NCBI GenBank assembly: GCA_010093705.1
Contig: MU006096.1
Location: forward strand, 925,908-989,907
DNA length: 64,000 nucleotides
Direction of reading: 5' to 3'
DNA from: Patellaria atrata CBS 101060
Lineage: Eukaryota > Ascomycota > Dothideomycetes > Patellariales > Patellariaceae
Every line of letters begins with the position of its first letter. Position 1 is the stretch's first letter. The translations under genes and the position numbers were made by a program. The notes beneath the pieces are model-generated. The model did not search any database and was not told the DNA's origin. It worked only from the letters and a program-made list of their open reading frames with translations. Of this stretch, positions 30,519 to 53,932 are shown piece after piece.

Positions 30519-33500
30519 ATGACTAACCCATCCATTCATGACCTCAAATATGGTCATGTAGGACCCGCTGTATACGATACTGATACTAAAGAATGGCTTT
30601 TTGGTCGAGAGATTAGTCGATGCAACGTATTGAAAGTCGTTGGTGAACCTGAGAAACTCTTAGAATCTTCCGTCCGGAATTCAGTGGAACAGGACGAGAA
30701 TAACTCGAATAAGCATTTTTCGCAGAGAATACGTAATGCATTAGAGGGACTCCCAGAACTTCTACCGGCAAGGCATATTATCGAGGAGTATGCTAAGGTT
30801 TCGTCCGCTATGTGCTCCGCAGCAAGATTCTACGACCCTGCAAACGGCAAACTGATTGGATTTGGAAAAGCAGCTGATCTTGACCGGAGATCCCAAGCTC
30901 TAGTACGAGTGATTGCAAAACCCTCTGGGGAAAGCGGAGAGATCCTTCACTTAGCCCAAGTTTTTGAGGAACGACGCGGCTGGGGTACGGAAAAGGCCCC
31001 GGCACTTCGAGACTTCAACATCGACACTAAAGGGCCTACCTACTGGCCTGGTGATGGTTCCCCGATAAAACACATATGCTTCTCGCGACCAGAAGGTAAT
31101 CAGAGCGCTTTTATCGCTGTTAGAACCGCGGTTTCCACATCAATACTTCGACCATTACTTCACCGGTCTGCTATTCCAAATCGTGGAGGCTCTCTTGGCC
31201 AGCATGTGTATAGTATTTCTAGATTGGATGCAAATCCTATTCTCAAAGTACCTATAACGAGTACGGGGGGGGACTTTCATGCCGATGTAGCCTTTAATCC
31301 GTGGTACCAGCGGCAGTTTGCCCTGGTAGATTACCGTGGTCATTGGAGTATCTGGAATGTGGAGGGTGGGCAGACCCGTGGCGGAAGAACTAACAAGTAT
31401 GATGTCAAGAAAATGAAGATTGGGATTCTTGAATCTCTTGTGAAAGAGCAGAGTAACATCCATGAGCGTCCTGACGACGGTTGGCGACGGATATTCTGGG
31501 CTGGGAATATCAATACCATAATTGTTTGTGACCGAAAGGCACTTGCTGTATTTGATATCCGGGAGAGGCCTCTCCGATTGCAAGGGCCAAATCTACATCT
31601 GGACACTTCTCCCGATTGGATACTTGATGCCCGAGTTGATCCTATGCAAGATGATCGTTTCTTTGTTCTAACTTCTTCACGAATCTTTTGGATACAAATA
31701 GATTATCTAGGAGGAGCGGAAGCTAATAGTGGAATTGCGCGTATCCTACTCTCATGGGCGCATTTTCGACACCCGGGAGACATATCCCTTAGCATACACC
31801 CCTTCAAATGTGGTAATGGTAAGACTAGTTCTTATGATTTGCCTCTCACTCATAACTAATACAATGCAGAGATATTCGTGCTATTAAACTCACGAGTCGA
31901 TTTCCCTATTCAGGTCTTTCGGTTCACTCACGAAGATAGCGGACTATCTATTCCACGTTCATTATCTGACCCGTTCGTTTTGAACCTAGAATCCCATTCA
32001 GACGGTCATATTCGGCAGAAAATCCTCGATCTTGACGTTGAAGGGTTATCATTCCACTTCGAAAATCGTTTCGTCAACAAAGATGGTGTGGGGGGCCGAT
32101 ACGCAAATGAAGGCTTACAGTTCTTTAGCCTCGTTTCTATTAATGACGATTTTAGTATTTCTCGACTACTGTTATATAGAGAAACTCGCGTTTGCAAATT
32201 TGAAGAGAAGGAGACTAGGCCAAAGAGCGTAGAATTTCCGACGTGGTCGACGAATATCGAATTGAGACGCTATCTGTCCAGTACTTTTGTTGAAGATTCC
32301 AGCGATAGCGAGCCTGATTTTATTGTACCTGATGGTATTGCTGATTTGGAATTGATCCCGCAACATGTCCCCATCACCAACCCACTTCAGGATCATGTAA
32401 CTTCACAAATCAAATCTGCCGGTTTAAAGAGCAAAATGCAGCTTCTAAATAGGGATTACATAAAGAACCTTCGCGACCCATCCACTGTCGAATTGAGTTC
32501 CGATATTATGGATGTGATCGCAGATATTAGAAACGAAATGGATTCAAAAGCTACATTAGAGGAAGATAAATATTATGGTACTTTGTAAGTCTATTTGCTA
32601 TCCTAATTGTCGAATAAATCACTAATTTTTGCTTTAGGTTAGAATTTGCAACGTCTGCACTCAAAGTGGAGGATGTGGATACAGCATCATCGAGCTTAGA
32701 AGATATGATTATCAGTTCGGGCCCTCGGGATTTAGAATCTCGCGTGCTCTATATTTTTCGGCGATACGCTGGGATTTTACTCGATCAACCTTTCAGGGTT
32801 GAAGGGAATCAGTCGCTACTGGATATCTATATTCATTTCTTGCACCTCTGGCTTTCTTTTCTCCCCCTTAATACTCCGAACAGCCTTCGTACCGCTAAAG
32901 AGAGCCTATGTCGTAGGTTTGCAGCTGAATGCGTTCTTTCACAACTGGAACTGAAAATCTCGGAACCAGTTAATAAGCCGGAACCGGTCGAATCTGCTAC
33001 GGATATTGAAACTCAGACGAACATCTCTCAACCTAGTAGCTTTTCATTGCCTCTTCGAACCTCAGGAAGAGATAACGTTCGTGGCTACGATGAATTAAGC
33101 TCCCAGTCAATTTCTACATTCAACGACATGCATTCAAGCCAAGGAGAAGGCCTTCTACCGACGCCAGAGCTCACCCCATCAGTATTTTCAGGATCGTCAT
33201 TTTCATCTTCTATGTCAGGGTTGAATGATACAACATTTACTCGTATGAAAAGACGCACGACACTAGAGGATACGGCACCGTTCCTTCCAACACAAGCATC
33301 TCGCGTACTGATGCATTGGAATGTCGACAGCAATCCTGATGATTATGACTGGGAAGCTACCAAGGACGCTATCGACGATGCAAGTGATACGGAAGTCGAT
33401 GGACTCTCAGCAGCACGAAGAGATAAGTTAAAACGACGTGCTGAAAAACATCTCAAACGCCAACGCCGAGAAACAGCTTCTGCTTCGGCTAGTATACAAC

Positions 33501-33664
33501 CTACGTTCAGAAGTTCTCCTGGCCCAACTTTAGATTATGGCGGTAGTAGTCAGATGGCTACTTCACAGCCCTTCGTTGCATCACAGGCAGAGAGAGGTTT
33601 ATTCGGAACGAGACGGCCGCCAAAGAAGAAGGCAAAGGTGAAGAGACAAGCTGGTTTCAGATGA
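30519..33664 (+). CDS. RRN6: RNA polymerase I core-factor subunit Rrn6-like
   Basis: Part of the core factor that recruits RNA polymerase I to the rDNA promoter. Three exons (30519-31818, 31870-32584, 32638-33664) encode 1013 residues. The N-terminal two thirds resemble a beta-propeller region (MTNPSIHDLKYGHVGPAVYD, FHADVAFNPWYQRQFALVDY, GHWSIWNVEGG, LDTSPDWILDARVDPMQ). The C-terminal part is helical, then Ser-rich and basic, ending QAERGLFGTRRPPKKKAKVK RQAGFR, the typical Rrn6 tail in Pezizomycotina. The family evolves fast; the overall length, the order and the ending support the call more than any catalytic motif could. Confidence 0.85.
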
Positions 33665-33860: not shown

Positions 33861-34174
33861 TCAACCGCCAATCCACCCCGGCTTAATCTTCAAGATCCTG
33901 CACTGGATTAACCTATCCATCAAGACCCCTAATATTAAGTACCGGTGCGCCCCAAACTCGCCCAGGATCTCTGCGATATCTTCTTCCAAGGGGTTACGAA
34001 CGAGATTCCTTATACGCGGCATAACCTCCTTAGGATCGCTGCCGGAGAGTTCAATATTCGTCCATTTTATAGCAAGAGCGAGCACACGAGGCGGCAAAGC
34101 ATCGAAGCCAGGCCGTGTGATCTCCCGGTTGCGTACATAGAGATCTCATCATAAGTGGGATCATTTCTCTTCAT
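33861..34174 (-). pseudogene. Copy D of the small-gene tandem family, frameshifted
   Basis: ATG 34174 opens MKRNDPTYDEIS, matching the family start (acidic-aromatic-D-x-I). One frameshift near 34135 moves the reading to VRNREITRPGFDALPPRVLA then LAIKWTNIELSG. This continues to VRNPLEEDIAEILGEFGA and ends DRLIQCRILKIKPGWIGG, TGA at 33863-33861. NP-x-EE-D-I-x-E-x-L matches intact copy A (GNPEEFDIYETL), and VLALAI matches VLAVAV. The conserved RW near the end is QC here. One break is clear; whether the shortened end is also a break is uncertain. Same strand as copies A-C. Confidence 0.6.
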
Positions 34175-34636
34175 CCTTGGCGGAACTGGTGATTGTATGC
34201 CGACATAGTAATGATGTAGTTATTGTATGTTTATTGGAGGATTTTAGAGCGTCTCAGATTGTATTTTGGGGTTTTGGATGAGAGACGCATTTACAGAAGA
34301 AGTGAACGACTTATATTCAGGTCAAGGGCGAGGAGTTGGATGAGTGGAGGGTCCGACTGTATTTTTACAATATTTTTGAGTGGTAAAGGGGATGTTTGTC
34401 AATATAAGGTGCCTAGTTCATATGAGTAAGTCCTTCACTCGCCTATTGATTCACGACTTCTGTTATTGTTCATTTTGACACGGACAGCTGCCTAATAAAA
34501 TGTTAGGGTTAAAGAAAGAATAAATTTACATGACTGAGGAGAGAATAACTAAGCATGTTTCAGTTCCTGTCTACATTTCCCATAATGCCGTCGAAGGCCA
34601 CGTCGAGTCATCAAGTACACCTCCCATATGCCAGAG
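34175..34636. other. Spacer between copies D and C
   Basis: About 460 bp without a supported frame; upstream sequence of copy D and downstream sequence of copy C. Confidence 0.4.
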
Positions 34637-34975
34637 CTATGATCTATATATCCGCCGGCCCTCCAGCGCTGCCTAGTGCTCCCAGTACAACATCAAGTGG
34701 TAGGAAAGCCCTTCGTGGGTATGGCCGAATTCATCGAATATATTGTAAGGATAATAGTCTTTCAAAACGTGCTTTTCAAACCAGCCCTTATCGACCTGCA
34801 CAATTTGTTTCGACTCCAAGGCGTCAATCATGTGAATCGCAAATGTGAGAGCCAGTGCGAGAGCGTAAGTGCTGAATGCTGGAAAAAACGAGTACATATT
34901 CATCGGATCAACGAAAACGTCGACGCAGACCTGTTCAAGGTCGTCTCATTCGCTGCGGATGGTATCAGTGCCCAT
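34637..34975 (-). pseudogene. Copy C of the small-gene tandem family, two nonsense codons
   Basis: From ATG 34975 one frame reads MGTDTIRSE, stop, DDLEQVCVDVFVDPMNMYSF, FPAFSTYALALALTFAIHMI, and on to GLSYHLMLYWEH, stop (34675-34673), AALEG, ending at 34637. Aligned with intact copy A, the first stop (TGA) falls at the Trp of EEWDQIEEL and the second (TAG) at the Trp of SRWAQLTG. Both are TGG codons changed by one G-to-A transition, the direction expected of repeat-induced point mutation. No length change is needed elsewhere, so the reading frame is otherwise preserved over 112 codons. Confidence 0.62.
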
Positions 34976-35857
34976 TTTTGTGGAGTTTGGGTCGAGGATT
35001 CGGTATATATATGGGTGTTTTGTGGACATGTTATATAAGTTGATATTGTGGTGGAGAGCACTCGGGATCTGACGGGTTTGAGATAGGAGTATATAGTGTG
35101 AATGTGAGATATTTGTGGATCTCAGAGAATAGAAATAGAGAAGCAGGATATATATAGGGGAAGGGTGGTCCTAAGAGAAGGGGTGTAAGTTAAGTATGTT
35201 TGTCATAACTTACATGTATCCCCTTAGTTTTGATATACGTATGCCCCTTATCAAAATAATCAGGTGATACCTGAACTGGAATCGCGGATCTCAATTGCAT
35301 CAAAGTACATGTTATCACATCCCGTCGAGTCACGGCTTTCAGCACGTTGAATTAGGAATATCTTAGAATATGCTAGATAGCGCGCGGTAAACCAAGCTGT
35401 AGAATAGCGTATAAAGTAATTTATAAACCAGCATATGAGTAATAGACAGTAGAATGTGGATCACACCGCCGACGTACTATATGGACAGCTACCGTATAAG
35501 CTAGCATTCTTATTTTACTTTATAGAATAGTGTATGAAGTGAACTCCAAAGGCTATGGTGCACTATTAAAGTCCCTTAGTCGGAGTTTGTGGTGAGACCC
35601 AACAGAGTATAGACATAAAATAAGAGATCCCAGCTTACATAGGATCTTCCTAAAGGCGCGGGTGTATATGTATTAAATCACAGGAATCGCTGGCCTAATG
35701 CAAGCTGCAAGGTGAGTGAGACAGTTTGATTTCACACGATCGAAAAGCTTTCACGAAATACATTCTCTTCCCTATATTACATCCTATTAGGGGATGAAGG
35801 GGCCACATCCAGATATCAAGCCAACCTCCCCCTTACAACTAATCAAAACATATTCAA
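34976..35857. other. Spacer between copies C and B
   Basis: About 880 bp, AT-rich. A 20-bp motif TAGAATAGCGTATAAAGTAA near 35402 recurs about 120 bp on (near 35524) with three transitions, suggesting a small decayed duplication. The region nearest copy C has TATA-rich promoter-like text (34990-35040). Confidence 0.4.
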
Positions 35858-36179
35858 TCAACGGCAACCCGCACTCATCGCCCAGCGCACTATCGCCTCA
35901 GCCGTGTCTTCCTTGAGCGTAGCGCGGTCGTTATTATATACACGACGTGTATCAGAAACTTCCTCGAGCTCCGGATAGTCCTCAAGGCGCTTCAGCGGCG
36001 GTCACATCGGTTCTTTGATTCCCCGATAGACAATGGAGTCTCGTGCTAGGTTGCTCATCTGTGCGCGATGAGGAGCATGTCGTCGGAGAAGCGCTCGAGG
36101 TCCGGGTATGAGTTTGGGTTCAGAAAAGGGCTTCTTTGAGCTCGAGGATCTGCGTCCATTCATCCTTGAATGTCGACAT
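35858..36179 (-). pseudogene. Copy B of the small-gene tandem family, multiply broken
   Basis: ATG 36179 opens MSTFKDEWTQILELKEALF, very close to copy A's start, then a frameshift leads to NPNSYPDLERFSDDMLLIAH, parallel to copy A DPNLTLDFGRFSFHVLAVAV. A second frameshift leads to NLARDSIVYRGIKEPM, stop, PPLKRLEDYPELEEVSDT and TAEAIVRWAMSAGC, ending TGA 35860-35858; RWA-x-x-x-G matches copy A RWAQLTG. Two frameshifts and at least one stop. The first frame is also open for 176 codons upstream of this ATG, but that stretch is promoter-like and matches nothing. Confidence 0.62.
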
Positions 36180-36954
36180 ATTTTGGAGATGTGGAGTATA
36201 AAGGTTTGGGGTGTTAGAGGAAATATAACCGTTGAGGAAAAGTTCAGTATGTGGAACAGTATATAGTTGTCGAGAGGGTTTCGGTGCGGGAGAGCGTATG
36301 TTTTGTTTCGAGCCTTGTACAGTTATTGATATAGGGGTTGGGGTGTGGGAAAGAGGGTATACAGGATTGGCAGAATAAAGGTAGAGAGTCAAAGAAGGAG
36401 AAGATATGTAGAGGGGAGCGGGCGTCCTTCTAAGGTGGAAGTTAGTAGTGGCAGTTCTGGGGAAGGTATATGTTGGCCATATTCGCCGTTGTGCGTTGTC
36501 ACCTAGTGCGTTTGTTGTGCTATTGATGTGGTTGTTGTAATTTGAAGAGTAGTACTGAAGGTCATTTCGGGATTTGGAGGAAAGAGATTTGTGATTTATA
36601 AGTAGAACATTGGATAATATACTTAAGGGTAAGCGACGCATTGAATGAGCGAAAGTTGTTAGTTTGAATCTTCTTATTGTTGGGTTATAAGAAATGGGAA
36701 CGTTCATAAATGTACTTGGTGCCGTCGTAGTAGTTTATTATTCTGATAAAATGTATGAGTCCTCTCATGACTTATCATAATACTGATAGCCGTTCAAGAA
36801 ACACGTAGATACGAAGAGAAAATTCAGTTCGATATAAGTAAGGGAATCTTTATCATGTATAATTGATATCCAACCTAAACATTATAATTCCTTCTAGGGT
36901 ACTATTGGGAAACATCAAGACCCCTTGTCGACCTCCCCCATAGCCCATATAACA
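36180..36954. other. Spacer between copies B and A
   Basis: About 775 bp. The part next to copy B is open by chance on the minus strand; the part next to copy A holds its 3' end. TTTATA-like text near 36200 could serve copy B as a promoter. Confidence 0.4.
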
Positions 36955-37299
36955 CTAATTAGGTGAATCGTCCGAGACCAGCTCCGGTTCGGGGTGAAAG
37001 CCGGTCAGTTGCGCCCAGCGGCTCCACTCTTGGATTAATGCTCTCGAGAGTCCTGGCTTATCCCAATGCCACTGTAATGTTTCGTAGATATCGAATTCCT
37101 CAGGATTACCCCTGAGCTGCGCCAGCTCGTCCAGACGATCGTCCATCCAAGAGCTGATGACTACAAGCTCTGCAAGTCTGACCGCGACGGCGAGTACGTG
37201 AAATGAGAATCTCCCGAAGTCGAGGGTTAAGTTGGGGTCCCTGAAGTATGCTAGCCTGAGTTCTTCGATTTGGTCCCATTCTTCCTGGAAAGTAGGCAT
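36955..37299 (-). CDS. Intact copy A of an undescribed small-protein family (114 residues)
   Basis: Start chosen at ATG 37299 (context ATCAACATGCC, preceded by two TATATA stretches at about 37303-37327); an ATG 66 bp further upstream lies in that promoter-like text. The product is acidic, predicted mostly helical, and has no signal peptide, Cys motif or membrane segment. Conserved points across the five copies are EEWDQIEEL near the start, DP-x-x-x-x-DF-x-RF followed by VLAVAVRLAEL, GNPEEFDIYETL, GLSRALIQ and RWAQLTG near the end. It is the only copy with an unbroken frame. It lies at the upstream end of a same-strand array A-B-C-D between RRN6 and REX4. I recognise no known family; function unknown. 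Confidence 0.65.
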   Translation of the reverse strand: MPTFQEEWDQIEELRLAYFRDPNLTLDFGRFSFHVLAVAVRLAELVVISSWMDDRLDELAQLRGNPEEFDIYETLQWHWDKPGLSRALIQEWSRWAQLTGFHPEPELVSDDSPN

Positions 37300-37686
37300 G
37301 TTGATATATAGATCCGAGTATATATGTTCAAGTTGAGGTTTGAAATGTGCGAGGAGTATATTCATTGGTTTTGATGTCGAGATAGGAGCTTAGAGTATAT
37401 GTAAGGATGTATTGCGAATCTGGAAGGATGGAGCTAAGAGGGTGGTGGAAGAAAGGTATATATAGGCGAACGTGTAGTGTTTTAGGAAGGGCGCAGGTTG
37501 TTGTGCGTTGGCAAATGATACGTTCAGTGTATTACTAGTAGACATCACAGTAGCAGATCGGTGGGTTGCTGTAACGATGATCACGATTTTCCTATATTCA
37601 TGAGAGGTAAGGTGAACGTTGCTGCTGGACATATGCTGGCGGATGCGGCACAGAGAAAGCTTCCATAGTTTCCTATCAGGAACTGT
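37300..37686. other. Upstream region of copy A / downstream of REX4
   Basis: The 387 bp contain the promoter of copy A (TATATA runs near 37303-37327) and, beyond 37630, the 3' flank of REX4. No further gene was seen. Confidence 0.4.
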
Positions 37687-38820
37687 TTACTTGTTCCCCT
37701 TCTTCCTCTTTTTCCGTTTCATATTTCTCTTCGCATTTTTCCCCCTCACGGCTGCTGATTGCTCTCCCTTCTCCTCGCCTTCTTCCTCGTCCTCATCACC
37801 CTCGTCATCCTCCCCATCGACGCTATCAACGGCCCGCCCAACAACAGGTCTCGGTCCCGCCCGCCCGTACCTCTTAGACACCTCCCTCTCAAAACCATCT
37901 TTCTCCCGCCTGAAGAGTAACATCGTCGCTCTCGCATCCTCAAGACTACTATGCTCGCCCCCCTGAATCTCAACACCGAGCAGCTCTTTTGCGAGCCGCT
38001 TCAACGCCGGCGTCCGCCCTCGACTTAACTTGCGGAACTCTGCGTACCGTGAAGTGTCTCTAATATCCCTCGGGGGGTGCTTCAGCTGCAAGGCCTCAAG
38101 ATCGTTCTTTATGGCATGACCAACCAGGATACGGTTCTCTAGCAATGCTTCCACGTCGCGCCGAACAGACTTAAAGGGCCGTGCTGCTTTAAGGAGCTCC
38201 TCTGTGATTCCCGAGACGTGCGTACGGTAGTCAGTAACCCGTATTGTGGGCGCAACATACGAGTCGTAGATTTGCACGCCGTGGTAGTTGACCAAGGAGA
38301 CACGCGCGAGTTGGGAGTCGGTGCTTGGGGGCGGCCCGGTGCCCACCATTTCGCAGTCCAGCGCAACGTATTTGCCTATCTGGACGGTGGTGTTAAGACC
38401 GCTATTGGGGACTTCAGGAGGTGCGGTGGAGGTAGGGATAGAGATGCTGGTTGGAGGGATAGAATACGCCGCTGCGACATCTGCAGGATTGAGGTCGTGA
38501 TCTTCAGCGAAGAGGGCAAGGGTTGCGGAGGGGGGTTGCTGGGAGGTAGTGATAGAGGCTGAGGGAGTTCTCAAGGGTTTAGAGCTAAGGATGCCCATTT
38601 TGCGGGGTTTAGAAGTGGGTATCGAGGGCTTAGGTGTGAGTCTGGGTCTTTTTAAACCATTATGTGTCGTCTTAGGGGGTAATTGCCCGTTTGATTGTTT
38701 ACGTTTGAGAGGAATCGAGGTGCCGTGGGTGATGGGCTTGGAGGAGGTTTCGAGGGTTTTGGAGGACTTGAGGGACTTTTGGAGCCTTTTCCAGTTGCTG
38801 GAGAGGTTTTGAAGATCCAT
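37687..38820 (-). CDS. REX4: RNA exonuclease 4 (DEDDh 3'-5' exonuclease)
   Basis: Trims rRNA precursors in the nucleolus. A single exon of 377 residues. A basic, Ser/Pro/Lys-rich N-terminal third is followed by the exonuclease domain: VALDCEMVGTG (ExoI, Asp and Glu), a central part with VTDYRTHVSGITEELLK, LVGHAIKNDLEAL (ExoII Asp), and GEHSSLEDARATMLLF (ExoIII His and Asp), so all four DEDDh residues are present. The C-terminus is acidic (DGEDDEGDEDEEEGEE) and then strongly basic, a common nucleolar pattern. It is divergent from ESA1, with 288 bp between the starts. Confidence 0.92.
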   Translation of the reverse strand: MDLQNLSSNWKRLQKSLKSSKTLETSSKPITHGTSIPLKRKQSNGQLPPKTTHNGLKRPRLTPKPSIPTSKPRKMGILSSKPLRTPSASITTSQQPPSATLALFAEDHDLNPADVAAAYSIPPTSISIPTSTAPPEVPNSGLNTTVQIGKYVALDCEMVGTGPPPSTDSQLARVSLVNYHGVQIYDSYVAPTIRVTDYRTHVSGITEELLKAARPFKSVRRDVEALLENRILVGHAIKNDLEALQLKHPPRDIRDTSRYAEFRKLSRGRTPALKRLAKELLGVEIQGGEHSSLEDARATMLLFRREKDGFEREVSKRYGRAGPRPVVGRAVDSVDGEDDEGDEDEEEGEEKGEQSAAVRGKNAKRNMKRKKRKKGNK

Positions 38821-39108: not shown

Positions 39109-40962
39109 ATGGCGCCTCGAGACTCTTCACATGAGCCGAATGGCACCCCGGATCCAGTCGAAAAGGGCTTTGCCACTTTGAATACTTTGAGGTAGAGTAT
39201 ACCACTTCCAAGGTAGACAGAAATGCGTAGATAGCTAATAATGTCATAGAGTGGGAGTAAAAGCGTTCGTTGAGAAAGTAAGTTATCTCGTCTATCTTCC
39301 TTTGGAGGACCATTCCGCATATAGCACCCCTATATATGCACTTTTACACTATGTGTGAATATGATGCTCTCTATAATCACCAAATTCTCTCTATCATACT
39401 ATGCACTTGTCTAATACTTTGGCCCCTGTTCTAACATTTCTGGAGGACGGAGAAAAGCGTAAAGCAGAAATCTTGTCTATACAGACTCGGAAGGGAGACC
39501 TTACATTTTAGTAAGATACCGTGCTACTATTTATATAGGAGGAATCTGACAATATTAGTGTGCACTACGAAGAGTTCAACAAGCGTCTCGATGGTAGGTC
39601 GAAGTCCGTTTTCTGTTCTCCTAAACTAAAGAAAGACTAGAATGGATCAACGCCGATAGAATCGATCTGTCTCAGGAGGTGGAATGGCCAGCTCCTGAGA
39701 AACCAGAAAAGAAGAAAGCCAGCGCGCCCCAGACTAAGGCTGCTCAAGTGTCGAAAGCTGAGCAAGCATACAAGAAGAATCCTAAGAGACAGCGCTCGAA
39801 ACTGGACCGTGAGCTTTCTATGACCCCTGATGTCCTCTCCGGCACCAATGCCCAAGGCAAAGCTTCGCGTCCAACCCGAGCCGGCGGGAAAGAGAACCGT
39901 GACCAAGTCAGTGTGATGGCCCCTGAGATCGTAGACGGCACACCCAAAGCAGAAGACGACGAAATGGACCTAGTGGACCTGCAGGACGCAGCAGCGGCTG
40001 CTAAAGCTGTACCGCCTGAGGTCTACTCTCGGGAAGAGGAGATTGAGAAACTCCGCACTCAAGGGTCGATGACCCAGAACCAAACCGAGATCTCGCGCGT
40101 GCGAAATCTCAACCGGATTCAAATGGGCGAGCACGAGATCGAGCCGTGGTATTTCTCCCCTTACCCCATCGAGTTCGCGCAGGATAGCGACATGGTCTAT
40201 ATCTGCGAGTTCTGCCTCAGCTACTTCGGCGAGCTGAAGCAGTTCGAGCGGCACAGGACTAAGTGCACGCTGATGCACCCGCCCGGCAACGAGATCTACC
40301 GCGACGACTATGTTAGTTTCTTCGAGATCGATGGACGTAGGCAGAGGACGTGGTGTCGTAATCTCTGTCTCCTTTCGAAATTGTTCTTGGATCACAAGAC
40401 CCTGTTCTATGATGTCGACCCCTTTCTTTTCTACTGCATGACCACCCGCGACGAACACGGTTGCCACCTCGTCGGCTACTTCTCCAAAGAGAAAGAGTCC
40501 GCGGAGGGGTATAACGTCGCGTGTATCCTGACGCTGCCGCAGTATCAGCGGAAGGGCTTCGGTCGCCTCCTCATCGCGTTCTCGTACGAGCTTTCAAAGC
40601 GCGAAGGCAAGTTAGGCAGTCCTGAGAAGCCCCTTAGTGATCTGGGGTTGCTGGGTTATCGCGCGTACTGGCAAGAGACACTGGTGGAGCTTCTCATGGA
40701 TGGTAGGGCGGAGGCGAATATCGAAGAGCTTGGCTCACTGAGCGCCATGACGACGAATGATGTGCTGCATACGTTGCAGAATTTGAATATGTTGAGGTAT
40801 TCGAAGAACAATCATGTTATCGTGCTGACGGACGAGGTTGTGGCGGCGAGAGAGAAACAGTTGGCAAAGGAGAAGGTGAAGGGGAAGAGGACGATTGATC
40901 CGGCAAGGTTGCAGTGGAAACCGCCTGTTTTTACTGCATCATCTAGGACGTGGAATTGGTGA
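39109..40962 (+). CDS. ESA1: MYST-family histone acetyltransferase Esa1
   Basis: Catalytic subunit of NuA4, acetylating histones H4 and H2A; essential in yeast. Five exons (39109-39191, 39250-39277, 39446-39510, 39559-39593, 39641-40962) encode 510 residues with all phases consistent. The N-terminal chromo-barrel is split over the small exons: [28 protein letters not shown], then FYVHYEDFNKRLDEW rebuilt over the junctions. A basic linker follows. The MYST core has a C2HC zinc finger ([19 protein letters not shown]) and the acetyl-CoA loop [12 protein letters not shown]. The catalytic region [15 protein letters not shown] and the Glu/Ser step [17 protein letters not shown] are intact. The 28-nt exon 2 and the GAG acceptor of exon 3 are easy for gene finders to miss. 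Confidence 0.93.
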
Positions 40963-52100: not shown

Positions 52101-53932
52101 CCCTCTTCCATGGTCAGTATTGGAGCTTCCGGAGTTTCTATACGGTTGAGATAGATATCCTAGAACACGACCAGCTCCACCGAAGCGTGAGACCTCCAGA
52201 AGTGGTACACTAGATTGGAACGCCTTCTTGGTATATAAGCATACAATTAGTCAGGAGTGTCAAGAGAAGATGAAGAAATAGACATACTGTGAACATGACC
52301 GGAACGGAACGGACACTACCGTCAGCGAAAGGTATCTCCATCCCATAATGACGACCTTCTTGTTGCTACACACAGTCCCTGAGACACTGCTACATGTTTG
52401 ATCACTATTTGGTGGACGTCTCACTAACACGAATATAAACCGTATAAGGAAAAAAAAGTGATAGGCCTACTATCATCCCAAGACTGGAGCGGATCCTGCT
52501 GCAAGAGGGGAGTATCTTTAACCCCTATAACGGTTGCTACTCATCGGTTGTTACACATTGGATAATCCTACTCTTGGCCATTATCACTTTCCTTTTGGCT
52601 TTAGGATCTCCAGGATATGGACCGCCCTGACTAATCACCTTTTGACATCAACCTGTTACAAATCAGCAGTGTTACCATTGGGGATGAGACGGATAGAATA
52701 TGCGTCTACGTGGAAAAAATATAGCTTGAACGATAACTGGAGATTCATAGGGTCTCACTCGACATAAACCACACATTGATAAGATGCCCATAATCACTAG
52801 TATTTTTTGAACAGTAAGAGAAAAGGGAACGGCACTTTCACAACCATTTTAGAACTAGGGGGACGTATCTTCCCAAAATCATAATTTAATCATCTTTATA
52901 TAGGTCTATCACTTGATTTAAGCAAGTACAGATCTTTACTAGATGAGGATCACGCTAACTAGTGGTATTATAACTACACATCCGAAGACATGGGTACTGA
53001 TTCTCTTCTGAATTGAATGGCGTTTGCTTACCTCAATCGGTCCATATGAGGACTTCTCTAGTGGAAGATTGCTCACTCATGAACTCAGGAAAGACGTCAT
53101 CCTTCGTGAGGTTTAGCGCTCCGTAAGTGTTATGCAATTGGTGTATGCATAGAGGCCAAATACCTATCTGAATTCTAAGCAGATATGCGCCTTTATGCAC
53201 TTCAAGGCGTTCTTACGGTTGGGCCTCCTCTCGTACCGTCTGATCAATCCGTTTAGTGAAGTGGAAGAGTTCCTGCGCATCACTATACAATTAGTTAGGA
53301 ACGCTATGATGGGGAAAGGAATACCTCTGATTATCTTTTGGTAGAGCGTGAAGATTTTTGCGAAAGAGCTAGGGATGCGTTGTATAATCGCTTGGAAGAT
53401 CCAGCTTTCCCATGGATCGGATCGATTTTGTTCTCGAGAAGAGTTACCGTGTCGTAGGACACCATACCTATTATCCATGGAATCCAGCGAATAGGCGCTA
53501 AGAGCTGAGGACTCCAGTTAGTAGGATTCGCAGCGAAGGTTCCCTTGGATATGCTCAATGTCCGTATTCAACAAAATCGGACGATAGGTATTCCTCGATA
53601 GTGATTCCGGATACGGCGTACAGTCTGTACGCAAACGAGCCTCAGTAGGGCTCTTTTTTGTTCACTACATACATTCATTATTCTTCAGTCTATTCTCCTC
53701 GTCGCGAAATCATCATCTCCAGCTCTTTCAATATGTTGTAAAGCAGACGATAACTGTGGCCGTCTGATCTCCTACAGTACTACGTCATTAGCAATCTGAA
53801 GCTCTATGGTTCTTCTAGATACGTACACTCTCAATGCCCTCTAACAGGGCCAACCCCTCATTGGAGGTTGAATTCATCGGTTATCTCGTACCAAAGACTC
53901 GGCACATCGGTATCCAACCCGTTCTTCCGCAC
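49112..53932. other. Gene-poor block
   Basis: About 4.8 kb without a gene I can support. The first few hundred bases are the LON promoter. Only frames under 135 codons occur, none with a known domain. A basic frame at 51330-51518 (KKPPRHSSLNTRNREKQK) and minus-strand frames near 53160-53560 are the most coding-like but unrecognised. No tRNA, terminal repeat or polymerase/transposase motif was seen. Decayed repeats are likely but unproven. Confidence 0.35.

Follow-up and report, generated by a model that had tools for sequence, protein, structure and literature searches.

The DNA between RRN6 and REX4 of Patellaria atrata CBS 101060 raises the question of whether four short stretches on one strand are copies of a single gene, and whether any of them is still intact. 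The region lies in the window analyzed here, the whole 64,000 nucleotide stretch from 925,908 to 989,907, on a contig 1.46 Mb long; the genome comprises 28.3 Mb in 46 contigs. The reading that best accounts for the observations, and that is considered quite probable, is a single-locus family duplicated in tandem, in which copy A has an open, codon-biased frame and the others have decayed, and whose fast-diverging product may be a small, acidic, helical binding protein.

The locus and its neighbors

Pfam matches to Rrn6 and RNase_T bear out the placement of the array between RRN6 (30519-33664, plus strand) and REX4 (37687-38820, minus strand), several named relatives of the latter being called RNA exonuclease 4. 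The two housekeeping genes are convergent, and the array occupies the minus strand of the 4.0 kb gap between them, at about 0.96 Mb on the 1.46 Mb contig. The coordinates and strand that the initial annotation had given for the array are correct. The RRN6 frame has two breaks, which fit introns at approximately 31819-31869 and 32585-32637 (GTAAG...AG); by a count from the sequence, the frame is preserved once both putative introns are removed. The frame of REX4 and that at 39679-40962 are open. Plus-strand GC skew is elevated at 34-40 kb (0.09 to 0.13), partly over the pyrimidine-rich 5' flanks of the minus-strand copies.

Organization of the four copies

Copy A (36955-37299, minus strand) is an intact frame of 114 codons and a stop. 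The predicted protein of 13.5 kDa is acidic (pI 4.36) and free of cysteine, and a hydrophobic signal was not evident at its N-terminus when the sequence was read by eye. The 5' flank (37300-37600, minus strand) contains a TATATATA box and a pyrimidine-rich stretch and shares homology with the corresponding regions upstream of B and C. A 3' block (36907-36939, minus strand) directly follows the stop of A and begins GGGGGAGGT.

Copy B is broken into three minus-strand pieces, each in a different frame. The first (36123-36179) begins with ATG and is open for 19 codons, the second is at 36058-36126, and both were located by tblastn (58% over 19 residues and 43% over 23 residues, respectively) and by codon bias. 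The third (35861-36004), identified by protein-to-DNA alignment and codon bias, has RWA and a nearby G as in A. Copy C (34637-34975, minus strand) is a single frame with two in-frame stops ahead of the last stop, one near either end. It holds a 76-codon ATG frame, and 74 amino acids from an internal ATG are present in the protein database (P0121). The 3' blocks of B (35801-35830) and C (34596-34625), both on the minus strand, were recognized by a pattern and by the flank shuffle test described below. Copy D (33861-34145, minus strand) is a probable relic, open over 33864-34145 without an early ATG. The view that A is the sole intact member was confirmed: frameshifts disrupt B, stops interrupt the frame of C, and D is without an early start. 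The array is a mixture of intact (A) and broken (B, C, D) copies, as in a birth-and-death family.

Two other elements were seen in the array. A short block bearing GGGAGGT is common to A, B and C just past their ends (31 of 114 columns invariant) and is possibly a 3' processing signal. A 195-codon frame at 36120-36707 (minus strand), overlapping the 5' flank and first piece of B, has a negative coding score and was taken as chance; an annotation pipeline might misread this 195-residue frame as a gene.

The possibility was considered that the broken frames are assembly errors. This is hardly credible because the neighboring frames are either open (REX4 and 39679-40962) or, in RRN6, have breaks that fit introns. 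Moreover, the differences that separate B and C from A extend over their whole length and are not confined to single indels.

Duplication of the flanking DNA

The flanks were compared using 1,000 dinucleotide shuffles per pair, with upstream flanks of 301 b. The 5' flanks scored 232 for A-C (no shuffle as high), 195 for A-B (5/1,000) and 160 for B-C (24/1,000). Against the A, B and C flanks, nine further upstream regions from the window scored 49-116, and against the A flank alone they scored 60 to 110. The 3' flanks scored 120 for A-B and 108 for B-C, neither equaled by any of the 1,000 shuffles, and 82 for A-C (29/1,000). Pairs involving D were not significant, with 213 (A-D), 68 (B-D) and 406 (C-D) of 1,000 shuffles as high upstream and 576, 159 and 99 of 1,000 downstream. 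The flanking DNA was duplicated along with the gene in A, B and C; D fails this comparison. Another flank comparison was kinder to D than the shuffle test (upstream values of 8-28/900), but its background was drawn from chunks that included the array and its 1/900 values may be self matches.

At the level of the unit of approximately 1.1 kb, DNA scores were 791 for A-C, 688 for A-B and 592 for B-C, compared with a maximum of 556 and a mean of 392 for 137 random segments scored with the A unit (150 were drawn, and those starting at 32.5-38 kb dropped). The A-D (460) and B-D (394) scores, obtained with a shorter D segment, fell within the controls, and the C-D comparison was void because the two segments overlapped. 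When the coding parts were compared as DNA, A-B was significant (0/500) and the other five pairs were not (56 to 321 of 500). The array compared with itself by blastn gave no repeat below E 0.62, and a tandem-repeat finder did not see the 1 kb unit, the longest period being 500. The 3' pattern did not match the A block within 3 mismatches. Because the pattern was drawn from B and C, its expectation of no chance matches is in part circular, and the shuffle test is fairer.

Together with the protein-to-DNA alignment and codon bias described below, these comparisons of flanks and units establish tandem duplication of the unit for A, B and C. Membership of D in the array is probable, judging from weak protein similarity, place and strand. 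The proposal that copies arose in tandem between RRN6 and REX4 and then decayed stands in the same way, firmly for A, B and C and as probable for D.

Relatedness of the encoded proteins

Relatedness was assessed by a frameshift-tolerant protein-to-DNA alignment (BLOSUM62, own script) over 1,734 windows of 400 b, taken from the 64-kb window and 20 10-kb stretches of the same genome; removal of 13 array windows left a background of 1,721. With A as the query, B scored 83, C 52 and D 45, scores equaled by 0, 2 and 5 background windows, respectively. With C as the query, A scored 56 (0/1,721), and neither B (23; 1,478/1,721 as high) nor D (31; 247/1,721) was retrieved. With D as the query, A scored 45 (4/1,721), and B (33; 127/1,721) and C (31; 233/1,721) scored poorly. 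In these alignments A occupies the central position: both C and D are similar to it, and neither to one another nor to B. Chance would not predict three partners of A on the same strand and no more than 3.5 kb away.

The copies share coding sequence beyond chance for A-B and A-C (0-2/1,721) and more weakly for A-D (4-5/1,721). Mutual retrieval above random, which the initial annotation had implied for the whole family, is therefore seen between A and both B and C and less strongly between A and D, and is not seen for C against B and D or for D against B and C. A tblastn search with A in the window gave the same partners, with B first (E 0.006), C at E 0.029 and D at E 0.33; when 200 kb was added, B had E 0.023 and D 1.3, and C was not among the best 15. 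Chance resemblance is ruled out for A, B and C by the protein-to-DNA alignment, the unit scores and the flanks, and D may be a chance resemblance.

The ordered motif set said to be common to all copies was overstated, as no listed motif is present in all four. RWA and DP/NPx4D[FL]xRF occur in A and B, and an NPxEExDI-like motif in A and D. The columns common to A, C and D are, in the numbering of A, F28, L36, A37, A39, I71, G83 and L88. The initial annotation also spoke of five copies. No fifth copy was found by the protein-to-DNA alignment; the next-best place in the window, 52501-52900, scores 47, inside the background.

Codon bias and the fate of the copies

Codon bias was scored with a table that does not depend on the window, being built from 34 long open stretches (at least 300 codons, stop to stop) in the 20 control loci. 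The null consisted of overlapping intergenic stretches (step 7 b) from the parts of the window outside hand-listed gene ranges. The log-odds of copy A was 0.129 per codon; of the 7,800 null stretches, which overlap one another, 0.05% were as high. The three pieces of B scored 0.227, 0.161 and 0.157 per codon (0.6%, 1.4% and 0.5% of the null as high), C scored 0.054 (1.7%) and D 0.045 (3.7% of 8,118 overlapping stretches). In each of the six pieces (A, B1-B3, C and D) the proposed frame outscored both remaining forward frames. Among the reference genes, REX4 scored 0.094, the 39679-40962 frame 0.092 and RRN6 exon 1 -0.010 per codon; given this last value, a low codon score does not rule out a gene. 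The 22 codons upstream of A, as far as the ATG at 37365, scored 0.024 per codon (16.8% of 8,716 as high), and this lower score makes 37299 the likelier start of A.

It is conceivable that A is also a relic that has not yet acquired a stop, considering that three of the four copies are broken. However, the bias of A is well above that of C and D and exceeds that of REX4, and this explanation is judged unlikely.

In the alignment of A and C, 98 codons were paired, and identity at positions 1, 2 and 3 was 45, 54 and 33. Different codons are used for 19 of the 30 identical residues. This pattern suggests constraint at the protein level, in an alignment that was guided by the protein and so favors positions 1 and 2. 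Since residues were kept despite the change of codons, there was probably selection for some time after the duplication.

Copy C could also survive as a truncated functional protein of 74-76 amino acids. The 76-codon ATG frame, with 74 of its residues in the database for this genome, covers most of the predicted helical part of A from residue 33 or 34. However, the similarity to A extends across both inner stops and the codon bias of C is lower, so that survival of C in this form is rather unlikely.

Repeat-induced point mutation (RIP) was also considered as the cause of inactivation of the extra copies, the host being a filamentous ascomycete and the duplicates measuring about 1 kb. The breaks in C are point-like, and the array leans slightly toward RIP in its indices (TA/AT 0.88, compared with a mean of 0.78, and (CA+TG)/(AC+GT) 1.09, compared with 1.14); an old signal could have been erased by later decay. 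However, neither index leaves the 5-95% interval observed among 760 control windows, and the clearly raised TA/AT and lowered (CA+TG)/(AC+GT) of a RIP-inactivated repeat were not found. Furthermore, RIP is not known to generate frameshifts, the kind of lesion seen in B. Inactivation by RIP is very unlikely.

Searches for relatives

Pfam gave no match at E <= 10 for A or D. The one match to C, PF17648 (E 0.11 and 0.13), was below its cut-off and was set aside. The statement that the family has no known domain consequently holds for A and D, with this single sub-cut-off match for C. A sequence search against solved structures gave nothing at E <= 10, and a search with copy A against a 5.8 billion-protein database gave 52 candidates, none at E <= 1. 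The profile search proposed in the initial annotation was run with A, C and D; among 448 candidates from the protein database the sole match was the C piece from this same genome, P0121. For this genome the protein database contained that piece and a shortened REX4 (P0001), and returned no protein for A, which makes the gene models here look unreliable.

In the genome itself, searches for dispersed relatives with the A, C and D protein stretches and the A and B DNA units returned only this locus, as did the 3' pattern from B and C. The known sisters were missed as well in these searches, except by the pattern derived from B and C, which found both. Neither the 65 pattern stretches from viral contigs nor the 48 from prokaryote contigs were confirmed as relatives, and a viral or prokaryote origin was set aside on that ground. 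Rfam gave no match over the window at the gathering threshold. A structured 3' RNA is not claimed: the three sequences form a weak hairpin (9 pairs, -4.55 kcal/mol), with two-sided changes in 2 of the 9 pairs and 4 pairs broken in one row.

The description of the family as undescribed holds within the proteins, solved structures and viral and prokaryote contigs searched. The nulls are weak, though, because a genome search with A misses B, C and D, and relatives that are equally diverged would escape. Lineage-specific function, which the initial annotation had proposed, was not borne out, as the null searches also miss A's own paralogues.

There is nearly an even chance that A is simply an older gene of ordinary kind, with relatives in other fungi that have diverged past detection, an explanation that challenges lineage specificity and not the array. 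REX4 gives a measure of the distance to other fungi. Its relatives in the protein database are at most 60% identical (best 120 of 4,573; 7,992 candidates scored), the first named among the matches listed being Aplosporella prunicola (57%), Coniosporium apollinis (58%), Macrophomina phaseolina (60%) and Cryomyces minteri (59%), followed by lichen fungi such as Xylographa. The host was accordingly taken to be a filamentous ascomycete close to Dothideomycetes or Lecanoromycetes. With the best listed REX4 relative at 60% and with paralogues that barely recognize each other, failure of homology detection is expected. As a general point, Weisman et al. 2020 (PMC7660931) state that fungal and insect homologues can escape detection. 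On the other side, the profile found the C piece of this genome alone, although it was a profile of only three sequences.

Predicted structure and proposed history

The structure prediction suggested for A was run with AlphaFold2. The model of A alone is all-helical with four helices, at low confidence (mean pLDDT 63.5), and that made with the C and D stretches is all-helical with five helices, also at low confidence (mean pLDDT 54.7). Foldseek with the single-sequence model gave 27 PDB matches at E <= 10 and none at E <= 0.001. A known fold was not assigned, there being no significant structural relative of this low-confidence model. Tentatively, and with somewhat less than an even chance, the pI of 4.36 and the lack of an evident signal sequence point to a soluble binding protein of a general kind, its partner unspecified.

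In the preferred reading of the locus, tandem duplication followed by decay, a unit of approximately 1.1 kb consisting of a 5' flank, a short frame and a 3' block was tandemly duplicated repeatedly between RRN6 and REX4, giving A, B, C and probably D. Copy A is still an open, codon-biased frame, and B, C and D have decayed, whether by frameshifting, by stops within the frame or by losing the start. Some residues of the protein were retained, although the codons matching them mostly changed. The product of A may be soluble, small and acidic, with a largely helical structure, and may act by binding a partner, and sequence turnover may have been fast enough that relatives are hard to recognize.

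A bolder version, speculative and very unlikely, is that the locus is a seat of continual turnover, at which a small binding protein engaged in an arms race, its opponent being for example some genetic parasite or incompatible partner, is repeatedly copied along with its promoter and then discarded. The 5' flank would then stay more recognizable than the coding DNA. The upstream flanks of A and C gave 0/1,000 shuffles as good, compared with 149/500 for their coding DNA, with different gap costs and lengths in the two tests.

If A is expressed, the locus is a compact record of an orphan gene multiplying and dying. The remnants found lie within 4 kb, and each of the units A, B and C retains its own flanks, so that a comparison of strains could reveal the sequence in which copies were lost. 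Furthermore, the paralogues of one genome have drifted beneath ordinary detection, a caution against equating the lack of a homologue with a new gene.

Comparison with known systems

Birth-and-death multigene families are characterized by tandem copies, divergence and a mixture of intact and broken members. The array resembles them in its tandem, diverged copies, one intact and the others broken, but differs in having only three or four copies, in one place, and in being seen in one genome.

In a general literature search that was not aimed at this locus, the nearest published pattern found is that of the orphan-gene clusters of Neurospora crassa, as summarized in a review (PMC12684174). These clusters are driven by duplication, relocation and rearrangement, and 78% of them are near telomeres (PMC12684174). 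As they are described there, the clusters and the array are alike in the lack of detectable homologues, in clustering, in duplicates and in much non-coding DNA. However, the Neurospora clusters are mostly near telomeres, whereas the array sits between two housekeeping genes roughly 0.96 Mb into a contig of 1.46 Mb, a position on the contig and not on a chromosome.

The section Other Fungi of the same review mentions secreted effector-like orphan genes in plant-associated fungi (PMC12684174). Copy A is similar in being small, apparently fast-evolving and without a known domain, and is unlike secreted effectors in its acidic, cysteine-free protein with no N-terminal hydrophobic signal by eye. 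Taken as a whole, the family fits the known pattern of gene-family turnover and is not a new kind of system.
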